A stretch of DNA of 64,000 bases from Promethearchaeota archaeon (lineage in GTDB: Archaea > Asgardarchaeota > Lokiarchaeia > Sigyniarchaeales > SOKP01). The notes beneath the pieces were generated by a model. The model was not told the DNA's origin, made no database searches, and was given only the letters and a program-made list of their open reading frames with translations. Each line of letters starts with the position of its first letter. Position 1 is the stretch's first letter. The translations under genes were made by a program, and so were the position numbers. Positions 833 to 50,408 of this stretch are shown in pieces. The stretch lies in contig JAUWGH010000008.1 in the NCBI GenBank assembly GCA_030606485.1, forward strand, positions 62,001 to 126,000. The letters run 5' to 3'.

Positions 833-1870
833 ATGAACTCAGAATTCATTAAAATAGGCAAATTTCAGAAGACAATAAATAATAGCATTACTCAATGTTT
901 GACATGTGAACATCGATGTAAAATATCTGATGGAAATGTAGGTATATGTAGAACAAGAAAAAATATCAATGGTGAAATTTTCACCACCGTATATGGAAAG
1001 ATTTCATCCCTTTCTTATAACCCAATTGAAAAGAAACCATTTTTCCATTTTCATCCGGGAACCACTGCAATAACTATTGGAACCTTTAGTTGCAACTTTG
1101 ATTGTTTTTGGTGTCAAAATTGGGATATTTCAAAACAAAATCCTGACAATTTTAATTCAAAAAATCTCTTTATTTCTCCTGAGGAATTAATTAAATTAGC
1201 AAAATCACGATTAAGTGAAGGCACTTCAATTTCCTTTAATGAACCAACGTTATTATTTGAGTATTCTTTAGAAGTCTTTAAATTGGCTAAAAAAGAAGGT
1301 CTCTATAATACATATGTTACTAATGGATACATGACCGAAAAGGTTCTTAGATCACTTGCTGAAAATGGTTTAGACGCATTAAATATCGATATTAAGGGAA
1401 ATCAGGAATTTGTTAAGAAATATTGTAAAGTTGATGTTGAGAAAGTGTGGAGAAATGCAAAGTTAGCAAAAGATTTAGGAATGCATATAGAAATTACAAC
1501 ATTAGTTATTCCAGGGATGAATTCTGACCATAACACCTTCAAAGAGATTGCTGAAAGAATAAACAGAGATTTAGGTAATGAAACTCCTTGGCATATAAAT
1601 CGGTTCCTTCCTGCTTATAAATCACTCGAATATGGGGCAAGTAAAAAAACCCCATTGAAAGTGCTCGAAAGTGCATATGAAATAGGAAAAAAAGTCGGAT
1701 TAAATTATGTTTATGTTGGAAATGTTCCTAGTCATAAATATGAAAATACTTATTGTCCAAATTGCGGGAAAATGGTCATTAAAAGATATATATTTGATAT
1801 AAATAAGTTAAATTTAACGAAAGATGGAAAATGTGCTAATTGTAATTATGATCTAAAAATTAAATTATGA
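833..1870 (+). CDS. amrS: AmmeMemoRadiSam-system radical SAM enzyme (AmrS-like)
   Basis: This 345-residue radical SAM protein resembles the pyruvate formate-lyase activase-like enzymes of the AmmeMemoRadiSam system. An N-terminal Cys cluster (C22, C25, C29, C39) precedes the SAM-cluster motif CNFDCFWC (C87, C91, C94), where three cysteines hold a [4Fe-4S] cluster that cleaves S-adenosylmethionine. A C-terminal zinc ribbon has CPNC at 308-311 and CANC at 334-337. The partner AMMECR1 and Memo genes are not in this window, so the system name rests on sequence resemblance alone. The gene ends with TGA (1868-1870), showing that UGA is a functional stop here despite selenocysteine use elsewhere. 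The substrate is unknown. Confidence 0.8.
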   Translation: MNSEFIKIGKFQKTINNSITQCLTCEHRCKISDGNVGICRTRKNINGEIFTTVYGKISSLSYNPIEKKPFFHFHPGTTAITIGTFSCNFDCFWCQNWDISKQNPDNFNSKNLFISPEELIKLAKSRLSEGTSISFNEPTLLFEYSLEVFKLAKKEGLYNTYVTNGYMTEKVLRSLAENGLDALNIDIKGNQEFVKKYCKVDVEKVWRNAKLAKDLGMHIEITTLVIPGMNSDHNTFKEIAERINRDLGNETPWHINRFLPAYKSLEYGASKKTPLKVLESAYEIGKKVGLNYVYVGNVPSHKYENTYCPNCGKMVIKRYIFDINKLNLTKDGKCANCNYDLKIKL

Positions 1871-39576: not shown

Positions 39577-40662
39577 TTATTCGATTACATTTTCCTCGAA
39601 CATTTTTTTGTTTATTTCAACGCCTAAACCTGGTTTTTCCAACGCTTTTACGATTCCTTTTTCAACCTTTATTGGTTCTTCAAGTATTTGATATTCATCT
39701 GGAATGAATGGATATTCTAACCATGGACATCTTGATGCCATTACAAAATGGATATTAGCAGCTAAAATATGCCCCATACCAAAAACATGGGGGATACAGC
39801 GGATTCCTTTAACTTCAGCCATCGCATCAATTTTTTTCAATTGCAAATAACCTCCACTACGAGTTACATCAGGTTGAATTATGTCATACGCTCCTTTAGT
39901 AAGAATTTCATCGAATCGATACATTCCGAAATCATTTTCTCCACCAGCAATCTCCACAGGTGATTTCCTCCTTAGTTCAGCAAGTCCATTAAGATTATCA
40001 GAAGTTAATGGTTCTTCGAGCCATGTGATGTTATATTTTTCACAAATTTTCGCGATTTTTAGGGCTTCATTAACGGTTTCATAACCTGAATTTGCATCAA
40101 CCATTATTTCAATATCTGGAAAAACATCTCTTACCGTCTTTATAAGTGCCTCATCCTTTTCAGGAGTTTTTCCAATCCTTAACTTAACTGCATTAAATCC
40201 CCCCAAATCTAATGCAGCTTGAATTGCGCCTACAGCAGCCCTAGGATTTTTGTATGGTCTAAACAATGATGCATAAGCCCTTACCTTTTTCTTCATCCCT
40301 CCTAGAAGACGATAAATAGGAGTCTTTACAGCTTTTCCCACTAAATCCCAGAGAGCTACTTGTATGACCGATGTAGCCATAGGAATACCAAATAGAATTC
40401 TGTTACTTGTATGGTAAATTGTATGAAAGATATCCTCAATCATAAAAGGATCTTTTTTTAATAATAGAGGTTTTAAAGCCTCATCAATAAAGCGCTTTTG
40501 GGCACTATTTGACAAGTTCCAATGAGATAACCCCCATCCTTCAATACCCTCATCGGTCTTGATATTTACATATAAACCAGTAGCTTTTAGGGATGGCATT
40601 GCACCAATTTTAATCTTAAAATCTAATTGTAATACATGCGTTTGAACATCTGTTATTATCAT
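39577..40662 (-). CDS. Mandelate racemase/muconate lactonising enzyme family protein
   Basis: A 361-residue enolase-superfamily protein. Active-site elements are K160-x-R162 (KLR), metal ligands D189 (VDANSGY), E216 (LEEPL) and E242 (GGEND), plus D265 in QPDVTRSGG and H292 in IPHVFG. This KxR plus His combination is nearer to mandelate-racemase-type dehydratases than to muconate enzymes with KxK. Substrate is probably a hydroxy acid or sugar acid. It is in the same direction as, and between, the acyl-CoA synthetase and enoyl-CoA hydratase genes, which hints at acid degradation but does not prove it. Confidence 0.82.
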   Translation of the reverse strand: MIITDVQTHVLQLDFKIKIGAMPSLKATGLYVNIKTDEGIEGWGLSHWNLSNSAQKRFIDEALKPLLLKKDPFMIEDIFHTIYHTSNRILFGIPMATSVIQVALWDLVGKAVKTPIYRLLGGMKKKVRAYASLFRPYKNPRAAVGAIQAALDLGGFNAVKLRIGKTPEKDEALIKTVRDVFPDIEIMVDANSGYETVNEALKIAKICEKYNITWLEEPLTSDNLNGLAELRRKSPVEIAGGENDFGMYRFDEILTKGAYDIIQPDVTRSGGYLQLKKIDAMAEVKGIRCIPHVFGMGHILAANIHFVMASRCPWLEYPFIPDEYQILEEPIKVEKGIVKALEKPGLGVEINKKMFEENVIE

Positions 40663-40693
40663 ATTTTTTCTAAATCAACGGGAATTATTTAAT

Positions 40694-42115
40694 TTATTGT
40701 GATGAAATAAATTGATTATATTCATACATCATTTTTAAGGCCGTAATAGCTTCTTTTACTCGGTTCATTACTGGAATTTGAAATCTCAATGCTGGTTTTA
40801 ATATATAATCAAACACCCACCGAGAACCAAAAACACAAATAATGCAAGGCTTTTTAAATTTAGAGGAAAGATTTTTTATAATTCTTAATGATGGCATAAT
40901 GCTTACACCTAGCAATTCTAAGGGTAATCTTGGTACAGTAAAAAGGAACAATACACTATCAACATTATTGTCGTTGAAAATTGCCTTTAATGTAGGATTA
41001 AGAGTAATCATTTGAGATGGTCCTAGATCTACCGGATTTTTTAATGACACCCAATCGGGAGCCACTGCTCTCATCGATTGAATTGTATTTTCCCCAAGTT
41101 CAGCAAGAATAAGTCCTTGTTTTTCTAACTCATCGCATGCCAAAATTCCGATACTACCAGAGCCGGTTATAATGGCTACATTTTTTCCCCTAGGTAAAGG
41201 TTGTATAGCAAAAACTTGAGCAATATTAAACATCTCATAAAAATTATCTACTCGAAAAATACATGGATATTGCTTAAAGATAGCGTCAAATATCCGATCA
41301 TTACCAGCTAATGACCCAGTATGACTTTTAATTGCGTTAGAACCCAATTCACTTCTCCCATTTTTAAGAATTATAATTGGTTTTGTTATTTTTTTCAAGA
41401 CTTCGATAAAAGCATCACCTCTCTTTACTCCTTCTAGGTAAATGGTTATCACTTTAGTATCTGGATCATTTTCAAAATATTCTATCATATCAATTTCATC
41501 GACATCAATCTTGTTCCCTAGCGTTACAACCTTTGAGAAACCAATTTTCTGACCTACACTAGCCCAATCAATAAATACATTTCCTAAAACACCAGATTGA
41601 GCAATGATTGCAATATTACCTTTCACCGTTTTTGAAAAATCTACATCAGAACTAGTGAATTCATTATAAAAATTCGTAACACCTACACAATTAGGACCAA
41701 TTATACGAATATTAGAACTTTTAACGATTTCCTCTAATTCCTCTTGATATTTAATGTATTTCTTAATACCTGTTTCTGCAAAACCAGCTGTTTCTATTAT
41801 TATTCCTTTTACATGCTTATCTACGCAATCTCTTACAGCTTGAACTACACTCTCATTTCCTACTAAAATTATTGCTAAATCAATATTATCAGGAATATCC
41901 TTTATGTTTTTATATGCTTTATGTCCAAAAATTTTATCTTTATATAAATGAACTGGGTATGTCTTAAATTTTGAATTTAATAGATATTTTGTATTCCAAA
42001 ATCCAAATCTTGGAGAATCCGAAGCTCCAATTATTGCAATCGAGTTGGGAGCAAAAAATAAATTTAAGTTATTACATTCTGAATTATCGTTATTATGTTT
42101 AATTTCCTTCTCCAT
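40694..42115 (-). CDS. ADP-forming acyl-CoA synthetase, alpha-type subunit
   Basis: A 473-residue CoA-binding/ligase-CoA protein resembling the alpha part of ADP-forming acetyl-CoA synthetase. The CoA-binding domain begins IAIIGASDSPRFGFWN. The phosphohistidine is H265 in KSHTGSLAG, and GNIAIIAQSGVLGN belongs to the ligase-CoA domain. The ATP-grasp beta part is not encoded here, so the partner subunit is elsewhere. It makes ATP from acyl-CoA, an energy-saving route typical of archaea fermenting amino acids. It lies 31 bases upstream of the enolase-superfamily gene, in the same direction. Confidence 0.84.
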   Translation of the reverse strand: MEKEIKHNNDNSECNNLNLFFAPNSIAIIGASDSPRFGFWNTKYLLNSKFKTYPVHLYKDKIFGHKAYKNIKDIPDNIDLAIILVGNESVVQAVRDCVDKHVKGIIIETAGFAETGIKKYIKYQEELEEIVKSSNIRIIGPNCVGVTNFYNEFTSSDVDFSKTVKGNIAIIAQSGVLGNVFIDWASVGQKIGFSKVVTLGNKIDVDEIDMIEYFENDPDTKVITIYLEGVKRGDAFIEVLKKITKPIIILKNGRSELGSNAIKSHTGSLAGNDRIFDAIFKQYPCIFRVDNFYEMFNIAQVFAIQPLPRGKNVAIITGSGSIGILACDELEKQGLILAELGENTIQSMRAVAPDWVSLKNPVDLGPSQMITLNPTLKAIFNDNNVDSVLFLFTVPRLPLELLGVSIMPSLRIIKNLSSKFKKPCIICVFGSRWVFDYILKPALRFQIPVMNRVKEAITALKMMYEYNQFISSQ

Positions 42116-42332
42116 ACTTTTTTTAATATTTTCACGTTTAATAATTAATTGATATATCGATTAAATTCAGATATTTTATTTTCCATTAAATTTTTAAAAA
42201 CTTTTAAACAATATACCTTTTTAATCCATAACAAATAATAATTTATTATTTAAATCTGAAAGCTAATTAGAAATTATTAAATTAAAATAATTATAGAGAA
42301 TAATGGAGGTATTTTACAAAAAGGTGTAAAAA

Positions 42333-44261
42333 ATGTCTGAAATTCGCATTGGAGTATTTGTTTGCAGATGAGGAATAAATATTGCGGGGATATTAGATGT
42401 TCCAAAAATTGTCGATGAAATAGGTAAAATGGAGAATGTTTGGTCTTGGGAGTATTTAAATATATGTACAGATCCAGGAGCGACCTTTATTATTGAAAAG
42501 ATTAAAGATCTCGAGTTAGATCGGGTTGTAGTTTCAGCTTGAACACCAATAACACATCAACCGGTTTTTCATAGTGTCTTAGAGGATGCAGATTTACCAC
42601 CACGATTTCTTCAATTTGTTAATATTAGAGAACACTGCAGCTATGTCCATCAACAAGAACCAGAAATGGCTACACAAAAAGCGATTGAATTAATTAAGGC
42701 AGGCATTGCAAGAGCTGAGGTTTTAGAAGATATACCAACTAAAACAGTTCCAGTAGAGAAAGCAGCATTAGTAGTTGGTGGAGGAATAGCGGGATTGACA
42801 GCCAGTATTGATTTAGCAAATGAAGGGTTCAAGGTATACCTTGTTGAGAAAAAATCCACCACTGGTGGAAGAATGGCTCAATTGGATCGAACCTTTCCAA
42901 CCGATGATTGTTCCATATGAATTCTCGGACCTAAAATGTTGGCAGCCAATAGAAATCCAAATATTACGACAATGACAATGGCCGAAGTTTTAGAAGTGGA
43001 TGGCTATATTGGTAATTTTTCCGTTAAGGTGCGTAAGAATCCAAGATATGTTTACGAAGATATCTGTACTGGTTGTGGTGCATGTTCAGATGTATGTCCC
43101 ATATATATGCCAAATTATTTTGATGAAAATCTCTCGGCTAGAAAATGTATAGATGTAGCTTTTGCACAAGCAGTTCCTGCAGTTTGGGATCTTCAAACTG
43201 ATTGGTGTGTAGAATGTTACGCTTGTGTTGATTCTTGTGATGTTCATTGTATTGATTTAAGTCAAGAACCCGAAATTGTTGAATTTGAAGTAGGAACAAT
43301 TATTATTGCTACTGGTTGGGATATATATGAACCAGAAGAATATGGCTACGGAAAATATGATAATGTTATTACACAAATTCAACTTGAAAGAATTATCGCT
43401 CCGAATGGTCCAACTCTTGGACACTTAAAGCGGCCATCTGATGGAAAGAGACCAAAAAATATTTTGTTCATAAATTGTGTTGGGTCTAGAAATGAAGAGC
43501 ATCCATGGTGCAGTAATGTGTGTTGTTTATTGTCGATTAAAAATTCGAAATTAATCAAATCAGAATATCCAGATTCTAATATTGTAGTATCATATATCGA
43601 TATGAGATGTGCTGGAAAAGCATATGAAGAGTACTACAAACGCTCTAGAGACGCTGGAATCATGTTTATAAATGGGAAAGTGGGAACTTTACGAGAAAAT
43701 CCAGAAACAAAAAATCTCATTGCTACTATGGAGTCAATCGGAACTGGGGGTATTATTGAATATGAAGCCGATTTAGTGGTATTATCTTCGGCATCGCTAC
43801 CCTCAGCAGGTACAAATGAAATTGCAAATATTTTAAAGGTAGAAAAAAGTCCGAGTGGATTTTTAAAAGAATTCCACTCAAGACTTGATCCAATTGAGAC
43901 AAAAATAACTGGGATTTATATTTGTGGTTCGTGTCAAGGACAAAAAGATATCGGTGCAACTGTTAATCAAGCAAGAGGTGCAGCACAAGCTGCCTCAATC
44001 CCAATGACTGCTGGAGAATATACAATAGAATTAATTCGTGCACAAGCAAATGATGAACGTTGTGCCAAATGTTATAAATGTATTGAAACATGTCCTTATA
44101 GCGCTATATCAGTTGATGAAGCAGGGAAAATCGTAGTTGACCTTATTAATTGTAAAGGTTGTGGTATGTGTGCAGCAGTTTGTCCATCGATTGCTATAGA
44201 ATTACGTTATTATAGAGATTATCAATATAACGCAATTATTGATACATTATTTGAAGCGTAA
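42333..44261 (+). CDS. hdrA: Heterodisulfide reductase subunit A, selenoprotein with three in-frame UGA
   Basis: A 642-residue HdrA if three UGA codons are read as selenocysteine: U13 (42369-42371) in FVCRUGINI, U70 (42540-42542) in VVSAUTPITH, U196 (42918-42920) in DDCSIUILGPKM. Family cysteines occur at all three places. The FAD motif VVGGGIAGLTASIDLA is near residue 148, and the ferredoxin motifs are CTGCGACSDVC (245-255), CVECYACVDSC and, at the C-terminus, CAKCYKCIETC and CKGCGMCAAVC. HdrA carries the bifurcating flavin and passes electrons to ferredoxin and HdrBC. GGAGGT and AAGGTG lie before the ATG, and mvhD follows 18 bases after the stop. Without recoding the gene would break into fragments of 12 to 69 residues before the FAD domain. 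Confidence 0.93.
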
Positions 44262-44279
44262 ACATAAAGAGGTAAAAAA

Positions 44280-44708
44280 ATGAGTTCTGATATAAAAATT
44301 GCGTCTTTTATGTGTTGGAAATGAGGGTATGGGGCGGGTGACATGGCGGGTACAATTCGAGCGCAATATCCGACTACAATTAGAGCAATATTAGTACCTT
44401 GCGCAGGAAGAGTTGGCTCTGAATTAATAATGAGAGCTATTGGTCAAGGTGCGGATGGTATTTTAATAGTTGGATGACACCCAGGTGAATGTGACTATGA
44501 AATCGGTAATAAACTGGCATACAGAGAAGTTGAATATATTAATCAAGTTCTAAATGTACTGGGTCTCTCAGATAAAAGAGTAAAGATGGAATATTGTAGT
44601 TCTGCAGAAGGGCAAAAATTTCAGCAAGTAGCAATTAATTTCGACAAGCTTATACGAAATCTTGGGAAAAATCCCCTTAATAAGAAAAGTTCCGACAAGA
44701 ATGAATAA
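44280..44708 (+). CDS. mvhD: MvhD/VhuD family electron-transfer subunit, selenoprotein with two in-frame UGA
   Basis: A 142-residue [2Fe-2S] protein that carries electrons from a hydrogenase or other donor to HdrA. It is not visible as one normal frame because UGA interrupts it twice: U15 (44322-44324) in MCWKUGYGAGD and U66 (44475-44477) in VGUHPGECDY. The family normally has Cys at both places (CxxC and GCHPGDC), which bind the cluster. The remaining sequence continues normally to AEGQKFQQVAINF. AGAGG precedes the ATG, and it is 18 bases after hdrA, so they are cotranscribed. No MvhA or MvhG hydrogenase genes are adjacent, so the electron donor is unknown. Confidence 0.92.
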
Positions 44709-44775
44709 TACGAGAAAATTTTAGTCGTGTTATGACTACCTGTTGCAGAGGTGTTGGAAATAAAAAGTTTTTTAA
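44709..44775 (+). ncRNA. Candidate SECIS element after mvhD
   Basis: Directly after the mvhD stop lies a foldable segment. TACCT (44737-44741) pairs with AGGTG (44749-44753) around the loop GTTGCAG. ATGA (44732-44735) stands opposite a TTGGA tract (44754-44758), like a kink-turn. Lower AAAATTTT (44715-44722) can pair with AAAAGTTTT (44763-44771). An alternative hairpin TAGTC/GACTA exists at 44722-44738. Archaeal SECIS elements normally lie in the 3' untranslated region, and both hdrA and mvhD need one. The exact fold is not settled by eye. Confidence 0.5.
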
Positions 44776-44889
44776 AAAATATATAGAAATTTGTTCAAAA
44801 ATTAAATTGGAAAAAATAACGTTAAAAGATTCATAAAATTAAAAGTTAGGTTAATATTTATCTAAAGAAATATAAAATTCGTGATATTC

Positions 44890-46017
44890 ATGGAGCCAAT
44901 GGAAGAATTACTGATAAAATATGATGATGTTAAGAGTATAATGGCAACGTTATTAAAAGAGAAAATAGTTTCTAAAATCATTAGTGGAGAAATTAAAAAA
45001 GGACATTTTAATGTATCCCCGAAATTGGTTTCAAAACTTGAAGAATTAGAAGATTTGCCACTTTCTCAACTCATTTCTTATGGTTATGCTCGAACCGATA
45101 GTGCATCTAAATTTTTACATAAAAATGCAAATGGCGCATTAGACGAAAAAGTTGGACTTATTGCTCGTCCTTGCGATACAAGAGCGATAATTGAACTTAT
45201 TAAATTACATCAAATCAATCCTGATAATTTATTTATTATTGCAATTGAAGATATGGGGATGATCCCGTCTTCAATGATTACAAGGATATTTAACAAAAGA
45301 AAGGAGTTTGATCAGAGTAAAATTATTCGGGATAAATTAACCGCTGAAAATCTTACCCTTATTTTAGATGGTGGGAGTTTAGAGGTTTTAGAGTTTAATG
45401 AAAATTTAAAAATAGCAGATAACTGTTTGAGATGCCTAAGAAAAGTTCCTGTTATGGGTGATTTATCGATAAGTGATATCGGAATCTCTGTAAAATCAGA
45501 TGATTTGATATTGCGTGTTTATTCTGAGAAGGGAAAGTCTGCTGTTGAGAAAGCTGGAATCAAAACCAGAAAAATTCCCGATGACCTAAAAAATCACAAT
45601 TCTGAAAGAGTAGAGACTATTTTAAAAAATGCTGAAGAAAAACGCACTAAAGATTTGGAAGAATGGAAAACTATGAATCAAGATGAAAAATTGGAAATGT
45701 TAAACAAATGCACTATGTGTGGTCTCTGCATTCGAGGTTGCCCCGTATGTTACTGCATTGATTGTATTTTAATGCAAAAACGAAAGGAAAAAACAATTAA
45801 TAATATTACATTTCAATTAACCCGCGTTGCACATGTCGCTGACAGATGTGTAGAATGTGGTAATTGTGCCAATAATTGTCCAATGAACTTACCATTATCT
45901 GAATACTTCCAATCATTAATTGAAACATTTAAAGAGAAATTTAATTATATTGCTGGAGAATCAGTTGATGATATTCCATTCCGTTCAGGAAAAGCAATTA
46001 AGGAAATGGAATTATAA
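44890..46017 (+). CDS. FrhB/FdhB-like iron-sulfur flavoprotein subunit
   Basis: About 375 residues from ATG 44890; the GTG at 44881 is an alternative. The N-terminal domain resembles the beta subunits of F420-reducing hydrogenase and formate dehydrogenase (IARPCDTRAIIELIKLHQ and IAIEDMGMIP). A C-terminal pair of ferredoxin motifs follows: CTMCGLCIRGCPVCYCIDC and CVECGNCANNCP. Such subunits bind FAD and connect F420, NAD(P)H or formate to Hdr. Its place after hdrA-mvhD (182 bases) suggests it supplies electrons to that module. The actual cofactor is unknown. Confidence 0.75.
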   Translation: MEPMEELLIKYDDVKSIMATLLKEKIVSKIISGEIKKGHFNVSPKLVSKLEELEDLPLSQLISYGYARTDSASKFLHKNANGALDEKVGLIARPCDTRAIIELIKLHQINPDNLFIIAIEDMGMIPSSMITRIFNKRKEFDQSKIIRDKLTAENLTLILDGGSLEVLEFNENLKIADNCLRCLRKVPVMGDLSISDIGISVKSDDLILRVYSEKGKSAVEKAGIKTRKIPDDLKNHNSERVETILKNAEEKRTKDLEEWKTMNQDEKLEMLNKCTMCGLCIRGCPVCYCIDCILMQKRKEKTINNITFQLTRVAHVADRCVECGNCANNCPMNLPLSEYFQSLIETFKEKFNYIAGESVDDIPFRSGKAIKEMEL

Positions 46018-46095
46018 AAACTGCATAAAAAAATGATTTTTTTATTAAATTCTTATCTATTATATATCCAGACAGTGAGATAAAGTTGCACCCTG

Positions 46096-48150
46096 ATGCT
46101 GGATGATGTTAAGATGATTACAAACAAAAGAATGATTAAGCATAAAATAATTGGTTTAACATTTATTTTTAGTGTTATTTTGTCTTCCTTTATTATTTTA
46201 AAATGTATTGATTTAAACAATAATTGTACCCGATATAATTCTACAAAGATTCTGACTTCTAATTCTAATAATTTTAACATATTGACATTTTGGGATCAAG
46301 AAATTGAACGCGTAAATAATACTTTATCAAATATTGAACTAGGAGAAAATTCTACTTTAAAATATACTAATCCTAATACAAAAGAAGAATATGATTTTAT
46401 TGTTCAAGAAATTCACTTTGATTCTCCAAATTGGGTCGATGCTACTCCCACAATTATAAAACTGCATGGATATCTTCTATACCCAGAAGAATTAAAAAAT
46501 AAAAATCCTGGATGTTTATGTATGCACGGTTTGGGTGGTAATGCTAACAAGTCTTTTGAGTTTGCTGCGCCTTATTTAGAAAATGGTTTTATGGTTTTAT
46601 GCCATTCTCATCCTGGGCATGGAAAATCCGAAGGGACAAACCCTACGCCAAATAATTTTTATTATGAAGGAGAATATAACAAATCATCACATCATTATTT
46701 GACTCTTTGCGGGGCTATTCAAGGGTTAAGAGTCTTGGAAAGTCTTAATCTTGTTAACAACTCAGAAATTATGGTTACTGGAAGTTCATATGGTGGATTA
46801 AATACCATGTATTTATCTGGTGTTTGTGGAGAGAGAATTGCGGGGGCAATACCATATATTGCTGTAGGTGATTATGAAAAGAATAATGAAGATCCTACGA
46901 AGCTTTTATTTTGGGTATGGAATAAAAATATTAATGAAATCCCTGATTCTTATTGGAATGAACAAAATCTAAGAACCGATCCAATATATTATTTAGCATC
47001 AGATAAGGTACCGCCAATTTTTTGGGAATTTGGCACTACAGATGAATTTTTTTATCATCATTGTATTATTAATACCTACGAAAAGGTTAATCATACTGAT
47101 AAATATCTTCAAATTCATCCTAATGGACACCATGGATTATTTGATTATGAAAATACGACAAAATTTTTTATTGATTATATTATTAGTAAGGGTTCAGCTC
47201 CTCCTAAAATTGATATTAAGGATCACATAAAAGGAAACAATATATTGGGTGATTATTTAGAAATTGAAGTGCATGTAGATTCGGATGTAAATATAGAATC
47301 AGTTCAAGTTGTATATAAATATCTTGATATTATAGGAACTTGTTGGGAAAAAGTTAATCTTGAAGAATCTGAAGAAGATATTTGGATAGGTATTTTAAAT
47401 CCAGGAGTTATTACATCAGATGTTGATTATTATATAATTGTTAATTTAGAAGGCGAAAATAATGTATGGTTCAGTTCGAAAATTTATACTGTAGGAAAAC
47501 TTATTAGTAATTTAACTATTCCATTTTATATTTTATTCATTGTTTTCATATCTTTTCCAGCAATTTTGTTAATTTGGAGGAGATATAAAAAAAATGTTAA
47601 AGAATTAGAGGAAAAATTTCAACGTGGAGCTAAAAAAAATTTAATCTTAGAAGTTTCTTTTTTGGGAATAACCGAAATGCTTTTTTTTATATCATTAATT
47701 TTACCAATAGCAGAATTTGGAAACAGTGGAGTATCATGGTCTTCAATATTTGTCTTTAACAAGTTATATACTTGGAAAGCGGTTTTTGGAAGTATGGCTC
47801 CATTTTTAACATCCATATTCCTTATTATATTTATATTATTTTTCCATATAAGCCTAATGAAACCAATAATTGCAGGTTTTTTCAAAATTGCTTATTTTTT
47901 ATACGCATTACTATTATATTCTGTCATTTCAGGTGTTATAGGGGGCTCGTCTGAGTTGGATAATTTTGGAATAATTAATTTAGGAATAGGCTTTTATTTA
48001 ATATTAATCGTGGCATTGATGTATATTAGTATAGGCGTTTGGAAACGATATTATCAAATAAATTTTAGAATAAGAGAACCTAAAAGGAAATTTTATAATA
48101 TTGACAGATGGTTTAGATTAAAAAGCTCAAGTAAGAAAAGGACTGATTAA
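46096..48150 (+). CDS. Secreted or membrane alpha/beta hydrolase with C-terminal membrane domain
   Basis: A 684-residue protein. An N-terminal hydrophobic helix (about 17-38) acts as signal or anchor. An alpha/beta-hydrolase domain follows: CMHGLGGNANKS for the oxyanion region, the nucleophile S231 in TGSSYGG, and a HHGLFD C-terminal His region near 355. After a beta-rich linker, about five hydrophobic segments (from ~470) form a membrane domain. It resembles dipeptidyl-peptidase or acetyl-esterase type hydrolases. Starts at 46096, 46114 or 46132 are all possible. Facing outside the cell is likely. Substrate is unknown. Confidence 0.7.
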   Translation: MLDDVKMITNKRMIKHKIIGLTFIFSVILSSFIILKCIDLNNNCTRYNSTKILTSNSNNFNILTFWDQEIERVNNTLSNIELGENSTLKYTNPNTKEEYDFIVQEIHFDSPNWVDATPTIIKLHGYLLYPEELKNKNPGCLCMHGLGGNANKSFEFAAPYLENGFMVLCHSHPGHGKSEGTNPTPNNFYYEGEYNKSSHHYLTLCGAIQGLRVLESLNLVNNSEIMVTGSSYGGLNTMYLSGVCGERIAGAIPYIAVGDYEKNNEDPTKLLFWVWNKNINEIPDSYWNEQNLRTDPIYYLASDKVPPIFWEFGTTDEFFYHHCIINTYEKVNHTDKYLQIHPNGHHGLFDYENTTKFFIDYIISKGSAPPKIDIKDHIKGNNILGDYLEIEVHVDSDVNIESVQVVYKYLDIIGTCWEKVNLEESEEDIWIGILNPGVITSDVDYYIIVNLEGENNVWFSSKIYTVGKLISNLTIPFYILFIVFISFPAILLIWRRYKKNVKELEEKFQRGAKKNLILEVSFLGITEMLFFISLILPIAEFGNSGVSWSSIFVFNKLYTWKAVFGSMAPFLTSIFLIIFILFFHISLMKPIIAGFFKIAYFLYALLLYSVISGVIGGSSELDNFGIINLGIGFYLILIVALMYISIGVWKRYYQINFRIREPKRKFYNIDRWFRLKSSSKKRTD

Positions 48151-48508
48151 ATTTCTTTGAAGTGTAAAAAAAAAATTTAATTTCAATATTATCAGACAAG
48201 AACTACGAGAAAAGAGACTGCTTATAAATATAGATTAAGGTAAATTTGAAAAAATGTTATGGGTTTTTATTTTTTATAGTTCATTAGTGAGTAGATCGGT
48301 GGGATCAGACCGTCCGTCGTAAATCATCCATTAGATAGATGTCATTAACTTGTTAAGTCATCATTTCCCAAATTTATATTGAATTTGATATTTAAAAAAA
48401 ATATGTGAAAAGTAGAATAATTATAAAATATTTTTTAATATAGAATTATTTAAGTAATTATTCTAAAACAGATAATAATTATATAAAAAAAATATAGTGT
48501 GAAGAAAA
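48151..48508. other. Intergenic region with GC-rich structured core
   Basis: A 358-base gap. Most is AT-rich, but 48286-48345 is roughly half GC, unlike the surroundings. Within it GATCGGT pairs with ACCGTC (48294-48314). Downstream, GATG (48338-48341) can pair with either CATC 48325-48328 or CATC 48359-48362, the latter extended by TTAAC/GTTAA. This suggests a small RNA or an RNA leader of the ferredoxin gene. A kink-turn or tRNA is not evident. Confidence 0.4.
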
Positions 48509-49237
48509 ATGTCTTTACCGTCCAAGAAAATTATTGAAATTCAAGATAATGTTTACTCTCACGAGTTCAAAATGTTAAATCATGTGAGTGAATTAATTTT
48601 TAATAATGATAAATGCATTGAATGTGATTTTTGTGCAAAAGTATGTCCTAAAGAATGCATTGGCTCTCCAGAAGATATGGGAGTTGAATCAGATTTAAAA
48701 AGATATGTCGATATTGATAAATGTATATTTTGTGGTATATGCGCTTTCACTTGCTCAGGATTTGCATTAAATTTACGAATTAATGGTGAGCCCAAACTTC
48801 TTCTTATAGAGAATGGATCTCTTCCTGAATTAAAACCAAAAGAACTTAAAATTAAGGAAACAGGTCAGAAAATTCAAAAATTGGTAGAAGGAACTACGAA
48901 GATTGAAAGCACAGAAAAGAAAGTTAAAACTGTTGAGGATTTTGTAAAAGAATGCGTAGTTGGAGCACTCTCAAATAAAGGAACCGAAATTATCATAGAT
49001 AAAGATCAGTGTATTAACTGTTTTAAATGTCAAAAGGCATCTGAAAAGAGTTATCCAAAAATAAATGTTGATATTACCCGTGCTCGTATCCCAAATGAAG
49101 GTGAAGTCTCATCTGTATGGAAAAGAATTACTGAAGCATTATTAGGCTTGCCAGCAGCTATTACAGATCTTCAAGGTCCAACAAAAAAGAAAATGACCGA
49201 GCAAGTACTTAATTTATTAGGAAAACAAGCAAAATAA
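48509..49237 (+). CDS. Ferredoxin-like [4Fe-4S] protein with C-terminal extension
   Basis: A 242-residue protein. Two ferredoxin motifs sit at the N-terminal third: CIECDFCAKVCPKEC and CIFCGICAFTCSG. A charged linker of about 80 residues follows, then a third, incomplete cluster with only CINCFKC. The last 60 residues are helical (SSVWKRITEALLGLPAAI). It is probably an electron carrier for a partner enzyme that is not adjacent. Linker composition suggests a flexible link. It starts with ATG at 48509, with GTGAAGA just before. Confidence 0.7.
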   Translation: MSLPSKKIIEIQDNVYSHEFKMLNHVSELIFNNDKCIECDFCAKVCPKECIGSPEDMGVESDLKRYVDIDKCIFCGICAFTCSGFALNLRINGEPKLLLIENGSLPELKPKELKIKETGQKIQKLVEGTTKIESTEKKVKTVEDFVKECVVGALSNKGTEIIIDKDQCINCFKCQKASEKSYPKINVDITRARIPNEGEVSSVWKRITEALLGLPAAITDLQGPTKKKMTEQVLNLLGKQAK

Positions 49238-49406
49238 ATTTTTATTTAACTCTTTTTCAAACTTTTCCTGATTTTTAATCCTAAATAAATAAGATCTTTT
49301 TTTAAAAAGATTAAATATTAAGTGAAATTAAATACAATTATCTTACATTAAAATTAATTAAAATAATCTGATAAAAATTAAATAAAATAAAGTAGGTTGA
49401 AAAAAT

Positions 49407-50408
49407 ATGGTAAAGCGTGTAGCTATTAATGGCTTCGGGCGAATCGGCAGAAATTTTTTCAGAGCTGCTTGGGGAAATCCCGGTCTTGAGATTGTTAGTA
49501 TTAACGATCTCTTTGCCCCAGAATATCTAGCATATGTGTTAAAATATGACACTGTATTTGGCCGATTTAAAGGAGATATCAAACACACTGAGAATAGCCT
49601 AATAATTGATGGACGCGAGATACCCATAACGGCAGAACGAGATCCTGCAAATCTTCCTCACGCAAGTAATAATATTGACGTCGTATTAGAATCTACGGGA
49701 TTTTTCACTAAGCGAGATGGAGCTGCAAAACATCTTGCTGCTGGAGCAAAAAGAGTCCTAATTAGTGCTCCTGCCACAGATCCTGATGTCACTGTAGTCA
49801 TTGGAGTAAATGATGATATAATAAAAGATGAACATAAAATTATCAGCCTTGCGAGTTGTACAACTAACTGTTTGGGGCCAGTCGCCAAAGTGTTACATGA
49901 TAATTTTACTATTACTAGCGGATTTATGACAACAATTCACTCTTATACCGGAGATCAAAGAACAGTAGACACAGCTCGAAAAGATTCTCCAATTAAAATG
50001 ACTCGTGGAAGAGGTGCGGCTGCAAATATGATACCAACCAGTACAGGTGCTGCAAAAGCAATTGGTGTAGTAATTCCTGATTTACAAGGGAAGATAGATG
50101 GTGTAGCGGTTCGTGTACCAACTCCAGATGGTAGTGTTGTAGATTTAACGGTTGTAGTTGAGAAGGATGTAAGCGTAGATGCTGTAAATTCTGCCATGAA
50201 AGTGGCAGCAGAAGGTCCACTAAAAGATATTCTCGAATATACTGAAGACCCAATTGTTTCAAGTGATGTTATTGGTAACCCTCACAGTTCTGTCTTTAGC
50301 GCTATGATGACTAAAGTTATTGGTAAAACTGTTAAAATATTTTCATGGTATGACAATGAATGGGGCTATTCCATGAGATGTGTTGAACTAATTGTAAATA
50401 AATTATAG
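49407..50408 (+). CDS. gap: Glyceraldehyde-3-phosphate dehydrogenase, bacterial/eukaryotic type I
   Basis: A 333-residue GAPDH of type I. The Rossmann motif INGFGRIGR starts the protein, NDL at 33-35 suggests NAD preference, and the catalytic C151 lies in SLASCTTNCLGP with H178 in TTIHSYTGDQ. WYDNEWGYS near the end is the classic C-terminal signature. Most archaea use a different, type II GAPDH or the ferredoxin-dependent GAPOR, so this type probably came by transfer from bacteria. It interconverts glyceraldehyde 3-phosphate and 1,3-bisphosphoglycerate. It is followed by a T-rich terminator. Confidence 0.93.
   Translation: MVKRVAINGFGRIGRNFFRAAWGNPGLEIVSINDLFAPEYLAYVLKYDTVFGRFKGDIKHTENSLIIDGREIPITAERDPANLPHASNNIDVVLESTGFFTKRDGAAKHLAAGAKRVLISAPATDPDVTVVIGVNDDIIKDEHKIISLASCTTNCLGPVAKVLHDNFTITSGFMTTIHSYTGDQRTVDTARKDSPIKMTRGRGAAANMIPTSTGAAKAIGVVIPDLQGKIDGVAVRVPTPDGSVVDLTVVVEKDVSVDAVNSAMKVAAEGPLKDILEYTEDPIVSSDVIGNPHSSVFSAMMTKVIGKTVKIFSWYDNEWGYSMRCVELIVNKL

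Follow-up and report, generated by a model that had tools for sequence, protein, structure and literature searches.

The adjacent genes hdrA and mvhD in the window (the whole stretch of 64,000 nucleotides analysed, from an Asgard genome of a lokiarchaeal order) appear to form a selenoprotein gene pair, in which a single eukaryote-like SECIS, located where mvhD ends, would direct archaeal/eukaryal-type insertion of selenocysteine (Sec) at five UGA codons: the three of hdrA and the two of mvhD. The [2Fe-2S] connector MvhD would receive electrons, probably from the FdhB-like subunit encoded downstream, and pass them to the bifurcating flavin of HdrA, with Sec15 and Sec66 most likely replacing two Cys ligands of its cluster. 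The N-terminal domain of HdrA (HdrA-N), a distant MvhD homologue that may hold the next cluster in the electron path, would carry the same alteration at its corresponding positions, 13 and 70. We consider this explanation, taken as a whole, to be probable. The features concerned are as follows.

42333..44261, plus strand: hdrA, predicted selenoprotein gene with three in-frame UGA codons, 18 nt upstream of mvhD (profile and PDB match)
42369..42371, plus strand: hdrA UGA codon 13, N-terminal Fe-S domain (UGA in 51/60 loci, otherwise Cys)
42540..42542, plus strand: hdrA UGA codon 70, N-terminal Fe-S domain (UGA in 20/60 loci, otherwise Cys)
42918..42920, plus strand: hdrA UGA codon 196, C-x-x-U in D-C-S-I-U-I-L-G-P-K-M (UGA in 61/61 loci)
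44267..44273, plus strand: putative mvhD ribosome-binding site, AAGAGGT (from sequence)
44280..44708, plus strand: mvhD/vhuD (FlpD family), predicted selenoprotein gene of 142 codons (PF02662, PDB homologues, AlphaFold model)
44322..44324, plus strand: mvhD UGA codon 15, predicted Sec of C-x-x-U (UGA in 64/64 loci)
44475..44477, plus strand: mvhD UGA codon 66, predicted Sec of G-U-H-P-G-E-C (UGA in 63/64 loci, Cys in the remaining one)
44690..44759, plus strand: eukaryote-like SECIS element (MFE fold, pattern search, covariation, model match)
44881..46017, plus strand: FdhB/FrhB-like Fe-S subunit (PF04432; PDB 9t1s_M at E 1.9e-35, 7bkb_E and 8rvu_E)

Identity of mvhD and conservation of its UGA codons

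The mvhD frame runs from an ATG at 44280 to a TAA at 44706-44708 and reads MSSDIKIASFMCWKUGYGAGDMAG...VPCAGRV...ILIVGUHPGECDYE..., with the motifs C12-W-K-U15 and G-U66-H-P-G-E-C71. The original prediction, which had named the gene as mvhD with in-frame UGA codons at residues 15 and 66, was borne out on both points: both codons are present, in columns that are otherwise invariant Cys, and the product with Cys at the UGAs matched the FlpD profile PF02662 in a profile search (135.3 bits, E 1.5e-39, cut-off 22.3, positions 1-123) as well as MvhD/VhuD chains in the PDB, with E values down to 1.6e-33. Modelling agreed with this identity, an AlphaFold model (pLDDT 80.5) overlaying 5odc_D, the MvhD of the Mvh-Hdr complex, at TM 0.83/0.86 and rmsd 2.0. 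The exception-level NCBIfam model NF045873 (VhuD) gave 126 bits, below its curated cut-off of 215; judged by its sequence, the window MvhD is of the same family but outside that methanogen group. The second motif had been described as GCHPGDC, whereas the sequence has GEC rather than GDC at residues 69-71, and the three UGA codons of the adjacent hdrA had been overlooked. The expectation that standard gene callers would omit mvhD was correct, since none of the table-11 ORFs of at least 80 aa covers it.

The occurrence of the two UGAs is far beyond chance. Across a set of 64 related Asgard loci that includes the window, every in-frame UGA that aligned to MvhD or HdrA of the window lay in a column that is Cys/Sec in the window. 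Other Asgard MvhD sequences gave the same picture: when 228 Asgard genomes were scanned, the 130 best matches comprised, by a count made by eye, about 126 with two in-frame TGA codons and four with one. On these sequences, the two-UGA state is a fixed, near-universal trait of the Asgard MvhD subfamily, suggesting strong selection. A contig scan for named relatives yielded only six, because Cys-codon patterns miss TGA; in two of the six, L076 (Lokiarchaeota) and L077 (Jordarchaeum), U15 was combined with Cys66. Eleven FlpD genes are present in the genome to which the window belongs, on contigs C1, C4, C7, C8, C10 and C12, four with two TGA codons and seven without UGA; some of the latter sit in long open frames, suggesting fusions. 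In the C1 copy of mvhD (L042:4545-5093), UGA apparently serves twice as Sec and then as the stop just before the SECIS AUGA.

The UGA codons of hdrA and the probable ligands of the MvhD cluster

The hdrA product scored 742 bits with the NCBIfam HdrA2 profile, below the cut-off of 1100, and matched the PDB HdrA chain 9sfi_A at E 2e-210. HdrA of the relatives contains one to four UGA codons, including one at codon 45 in 10 of the 60 complete loci, which otherwise have Cys there. Two Sec codons among positions 13, 45 and 70 were found in 26/60 loci and three in none, a hint that a single cluster does not admit a third Sec (0/60 against roughly 3 expected, without tree correction). On the HdrA tree, the seven Sec patterns over these positions need at least 17 changes; therefore, Sec and Cys have been exchanged many times, and this natural variation offers a ready comparison series. 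Single extra UGAs were also seen at ferredoxin-domain Cys columns, at column 295 in L042 HdrA and column 587 in L149 HdrA.

MvhD is predicted from its five Cys/Sec positions to bind a [2Fe-2S] cluster. The invariant Cys/Sec columns are 12, 15, 41, 66 and 71, one more than the four ligand places. An hhalign comparison aligned 125 columns of HdrA-N and MvhD (E 0.0014), with HdrA 11/13, 45 and 70 falling on MvhD 12/15, 41 and 66; these equivalents are Cys/Sec in every complete relative, and Cys71 has no counterpart. Because the homologous HdrA-N retains just the equivalents of 12, 15, 41 and 66, a ligand set including both Sec is favoured, and it is plausible that both ligate the same [2Fe-2S] cluster, as originally proposed. 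Clusters doubly ligated by selenium would be chemically unusual. The surplus column could also accommodate an arrangement in which both UGAs encode Sec but only one of the two ligates, the other (or Cys71) being redox-active or gating nearby, for example as a selenenylsulfide switch; Sec196 of HdrA (C-x-x-U) is likewise beyond the 24 Cys needed by the six [4Fe-4S] clusters of that protein (PMC5861303). As the HdrA-N homologue points to 12, 15, 41 and 66 as the ligands, however, we regard a single Sec ligand as rather unlikely. Preferring Sec15 and Sec66 both as ligands, we infer Se-Fe ligation, and the presumed benefit of Sec may lie, e.g., in tuning of the redox potential or in faster transfer of electrons.

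MvhD is known as a [2Fe-2S] connector fed via the HdrA clusters, with electrons passing on to the bifurcating FAD (PMC12350162). The FdhB-like subunit encoded downstream of mvhD is, by its sequence matches, the likely electron-input partner and would be the electron donor. Its match to 9t1s_M, together with the presence in the same PDB entry, 9T1S, of HdrA and VhuD chains matched by window proteins, makes assembly of an FdhB-HdrA-MvhD electron-input arm likely by analogy.

Probable reading of UGA as selenocysteine

By its gene content the genome is Sec-decoding: it carries tRNA-Sec (C2:189906-190018; 47.1 bits, just reaching the gathering score of 47) with SepSecS beside it (C2:188523-189821; 487 bits), SelB (C2:193372; 264 bits), a SelD gene that itself holds one TGA, and a candidate PSTK whose 141 bits fall short of the curated cut-off. 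ARAGORN made no tRNA-Sec call, probably owing to the extra bases seen in the tRNA-Sec of L082 (about 1501-1613, minus strand), which look like an intron placed in its anticodon loop. The machinery, the SECIS and the conservation together support the original assignment of Sec to both MvhD positions, and we infer actual Sec insertion at the UGAs of MvhD and HdrA.

UGA ends 3 of the 44 long ORFs in the window, so that it is a rare stop but can be one. Termination at the UGAs discussed here, which would make mvhD and hdrA broken genes or products of sequencing errors, is nevertheless very improbable, since the same two codons recur in most of the relatives scanned, aligned UGAs are confined to Cys columns, nothing else interrupts the frame, and it is followed by a SECIS with covarying pairs. 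The rarity of UGA as a stop might also suggest its genome-wide reassignment to another amino acid, which we consider still more remote because UGA does end some ORFs, Sec machinery is present, and the in-frame UGAs of these genes are limited to Cys columns and accompanied by a SECIS. We rejected both the pseudogene and the recoding readings.

A single SECIS element with a second hairpin

The SECIS comprises the AUGA at 44701-44704, a 9-bp stem (44705-44713/44725-44733), a loop at 44714-44724 and the GA at 44734-44735, enclosed by a lower stem (44690-44696 with 44753-44759), with a second hairpin at about 44738-44753; the mvhD stop codon falls within it. The MFE fold of 44688-44762 (z -2.6) contains the AUGA, AUAAUACGA paired with UCGUGUUAU, an 11-nt A-rich loop and the GA. 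Type I eSECIS elements of Asgard archaea are defined by an AUGA_GA core, an upper stem of 7-15 bp, an A-rich apical loop and a location in the 3' region, and the element has this core, a 9-bp upper stem, the apical loop GAAAAUUUUAG and this location.

The AUGA-stem-loop-GA pattern was found in 38/64 loci compared with 1.25% of shuffles. All nine pairs of the stem were changed on both sides among 30 loci (covariation 1.076, against 0.232 when shuffled and at most 0.231 when slid). The second hairpin, which RNAalifold predicted, follows the 3' GA and precedes the lower stem, its loop often containing GCA. Its support comes from covariation rather than from the single-sequence shuffle score: all five pairs showed compensatory changes among 21 loci (0.613, with 0.273 for shuffles and no more than 0.254 for slid partners), whereas simple shuffles of single sequences gave no significance (0.19). 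A SECIS covariance model scored the window element, itself a training sequence, at 69.8 bits and found six held-out relatives (L149, L139, L145, L158, L153 and L155) at E 3e-13 to 5.5e-6. In the genome of the window it matched the four mvhD loci with two UGAs, of which three had been used in training, and a fifth site at C5:254769, following the large-subunit gene of a [NiFe]-hydrogenase. A small ORF at the C5 site (L169, about 1365-1540) reads YDCULSCAAH, a split hydrogenase small subunit that resembles VhuU; its apparent UGA stop belongs to the AUGA core of its own SECIS, and HdrC- and HdrB-like genes lie downstream. An Rfam scan of 40000-50000 found no SECIS family, the hits being snoRNA-like chance matches.

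The distances from UGA to AUGA are 223 and 376 nt for mvhD, and 1780, 2158 and 2329 nt for hdrA; the latter exceed the 70-1500 nt quoted for archaea (PMC9499178). A separate SECIS for hdrA would not fit into the 18 nt between the two genes, so that from the layout of the locus all five UGAs of hdrA and mvhD, the farthest 2.3 kb away, must depend on one SECIS. A SECIS shared by hdrA and mvhD agrees with PMC11227280. A SECIS of lokiarchaeal origin proved non-functional in Methanococcus maripaludis (PMC11881835), and the in vivo function of elements of this type is putative. According to a review (PMC9499178), the number of Sec per archaeal gene is one or two and the lokiarchaeal SECIS contains a single apical loop; in contrast, HdrA reaches four Sec codons among the loci examined here, and their SECIS has a second hairpin. 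The element is relevant to the transition from archaeal to eukaryal Sec decoding.

Comparison with known systems

The original prediction implied that a two-Sec MvhD is rare, but such proteins are already known from methanogens, in addition to being near-universal in the Asgard subfamily. For example, vhuD of M. maripaludis has two UGAs (PMC9622424); Table 1 of a 2026 inventory (PMC13188914) gives VhuD (WP_012980414) as CxxU with 2 Sec and HdrA as CxxU with 1 Sec; and the VhuD chain 9sfi_K (PDB 9SFI/9T1S) has X at exactly both MvhD Sec positions, which we read as Sec. No publication was found under PDB code 9SFI.

Asgard MvhD and HdrA selenoproteins have likewise been described (PMC9723677 and PMC11227280). 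In the literature examined, which was that other than Mariotti et al. 2016 (Lokiarchaeota selenoproteins) and the 2013 VhuD paper, we found no HdrA with three or four Sec codons, no exchange of Sec among equivalent cluster positions, no five UGAs on one SECIS and no second hairpin. A broader proposal is that HdrA-N and MvhD each have two Sec ligands at equivalent positions, giving two successive doubly Se-ligated clusters, that Sec moves among HdrA-N 13, 45 and 70 without ever occupying all three, and that one two-hairpin SECIS decodes five UGAs over more than 2 kb; we advance this combination tentatively, as having slightly less than an even chance of being right.

The window pair resembles the Methanococcus VhuD system in that its MvhD is of the FlpD family, both predicted Sec aligning with those of VhuD (C-x-x-U and G-U-x-P-x-E-C), and its HdrA partner is predicted to have Sec at D-C-x-x-U, but differs in its Asgard host and its eukaryote-like SECIS, that of Methanococcus being of the GAA_A type. 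In the 9SFI complex, HdrA (9sfi_A) has a non-standard X at the 196 site and Cys at both N-terminal sites, whereas the window HdrA is predicted to have Sec at the latter. The MvhD/ElpC connectors of the Mvh-Hdr, Fdh-Hdr and Elp-Hdr complexes (5ODC, 7BKB and 8RVU) share with the window MvhD the fold, the five Cys positions and the accompanying HdrA and FdhB-type partners, but have Cys throughout where the window MvhD would have Sec. The window pair also resembles the Asgard hdrA-frhD(mvhD) pairs of PMC11227280, adjacent selenoprotein genes with one shared type I eSECIS, for which the main text of that paper gives neither the Sec count per protein nor the second covarying hairpin found here. Compared with these systems, the fresher points are the neighbouring HdrA with its three UGAs and the one RNA signal that would serve all five.
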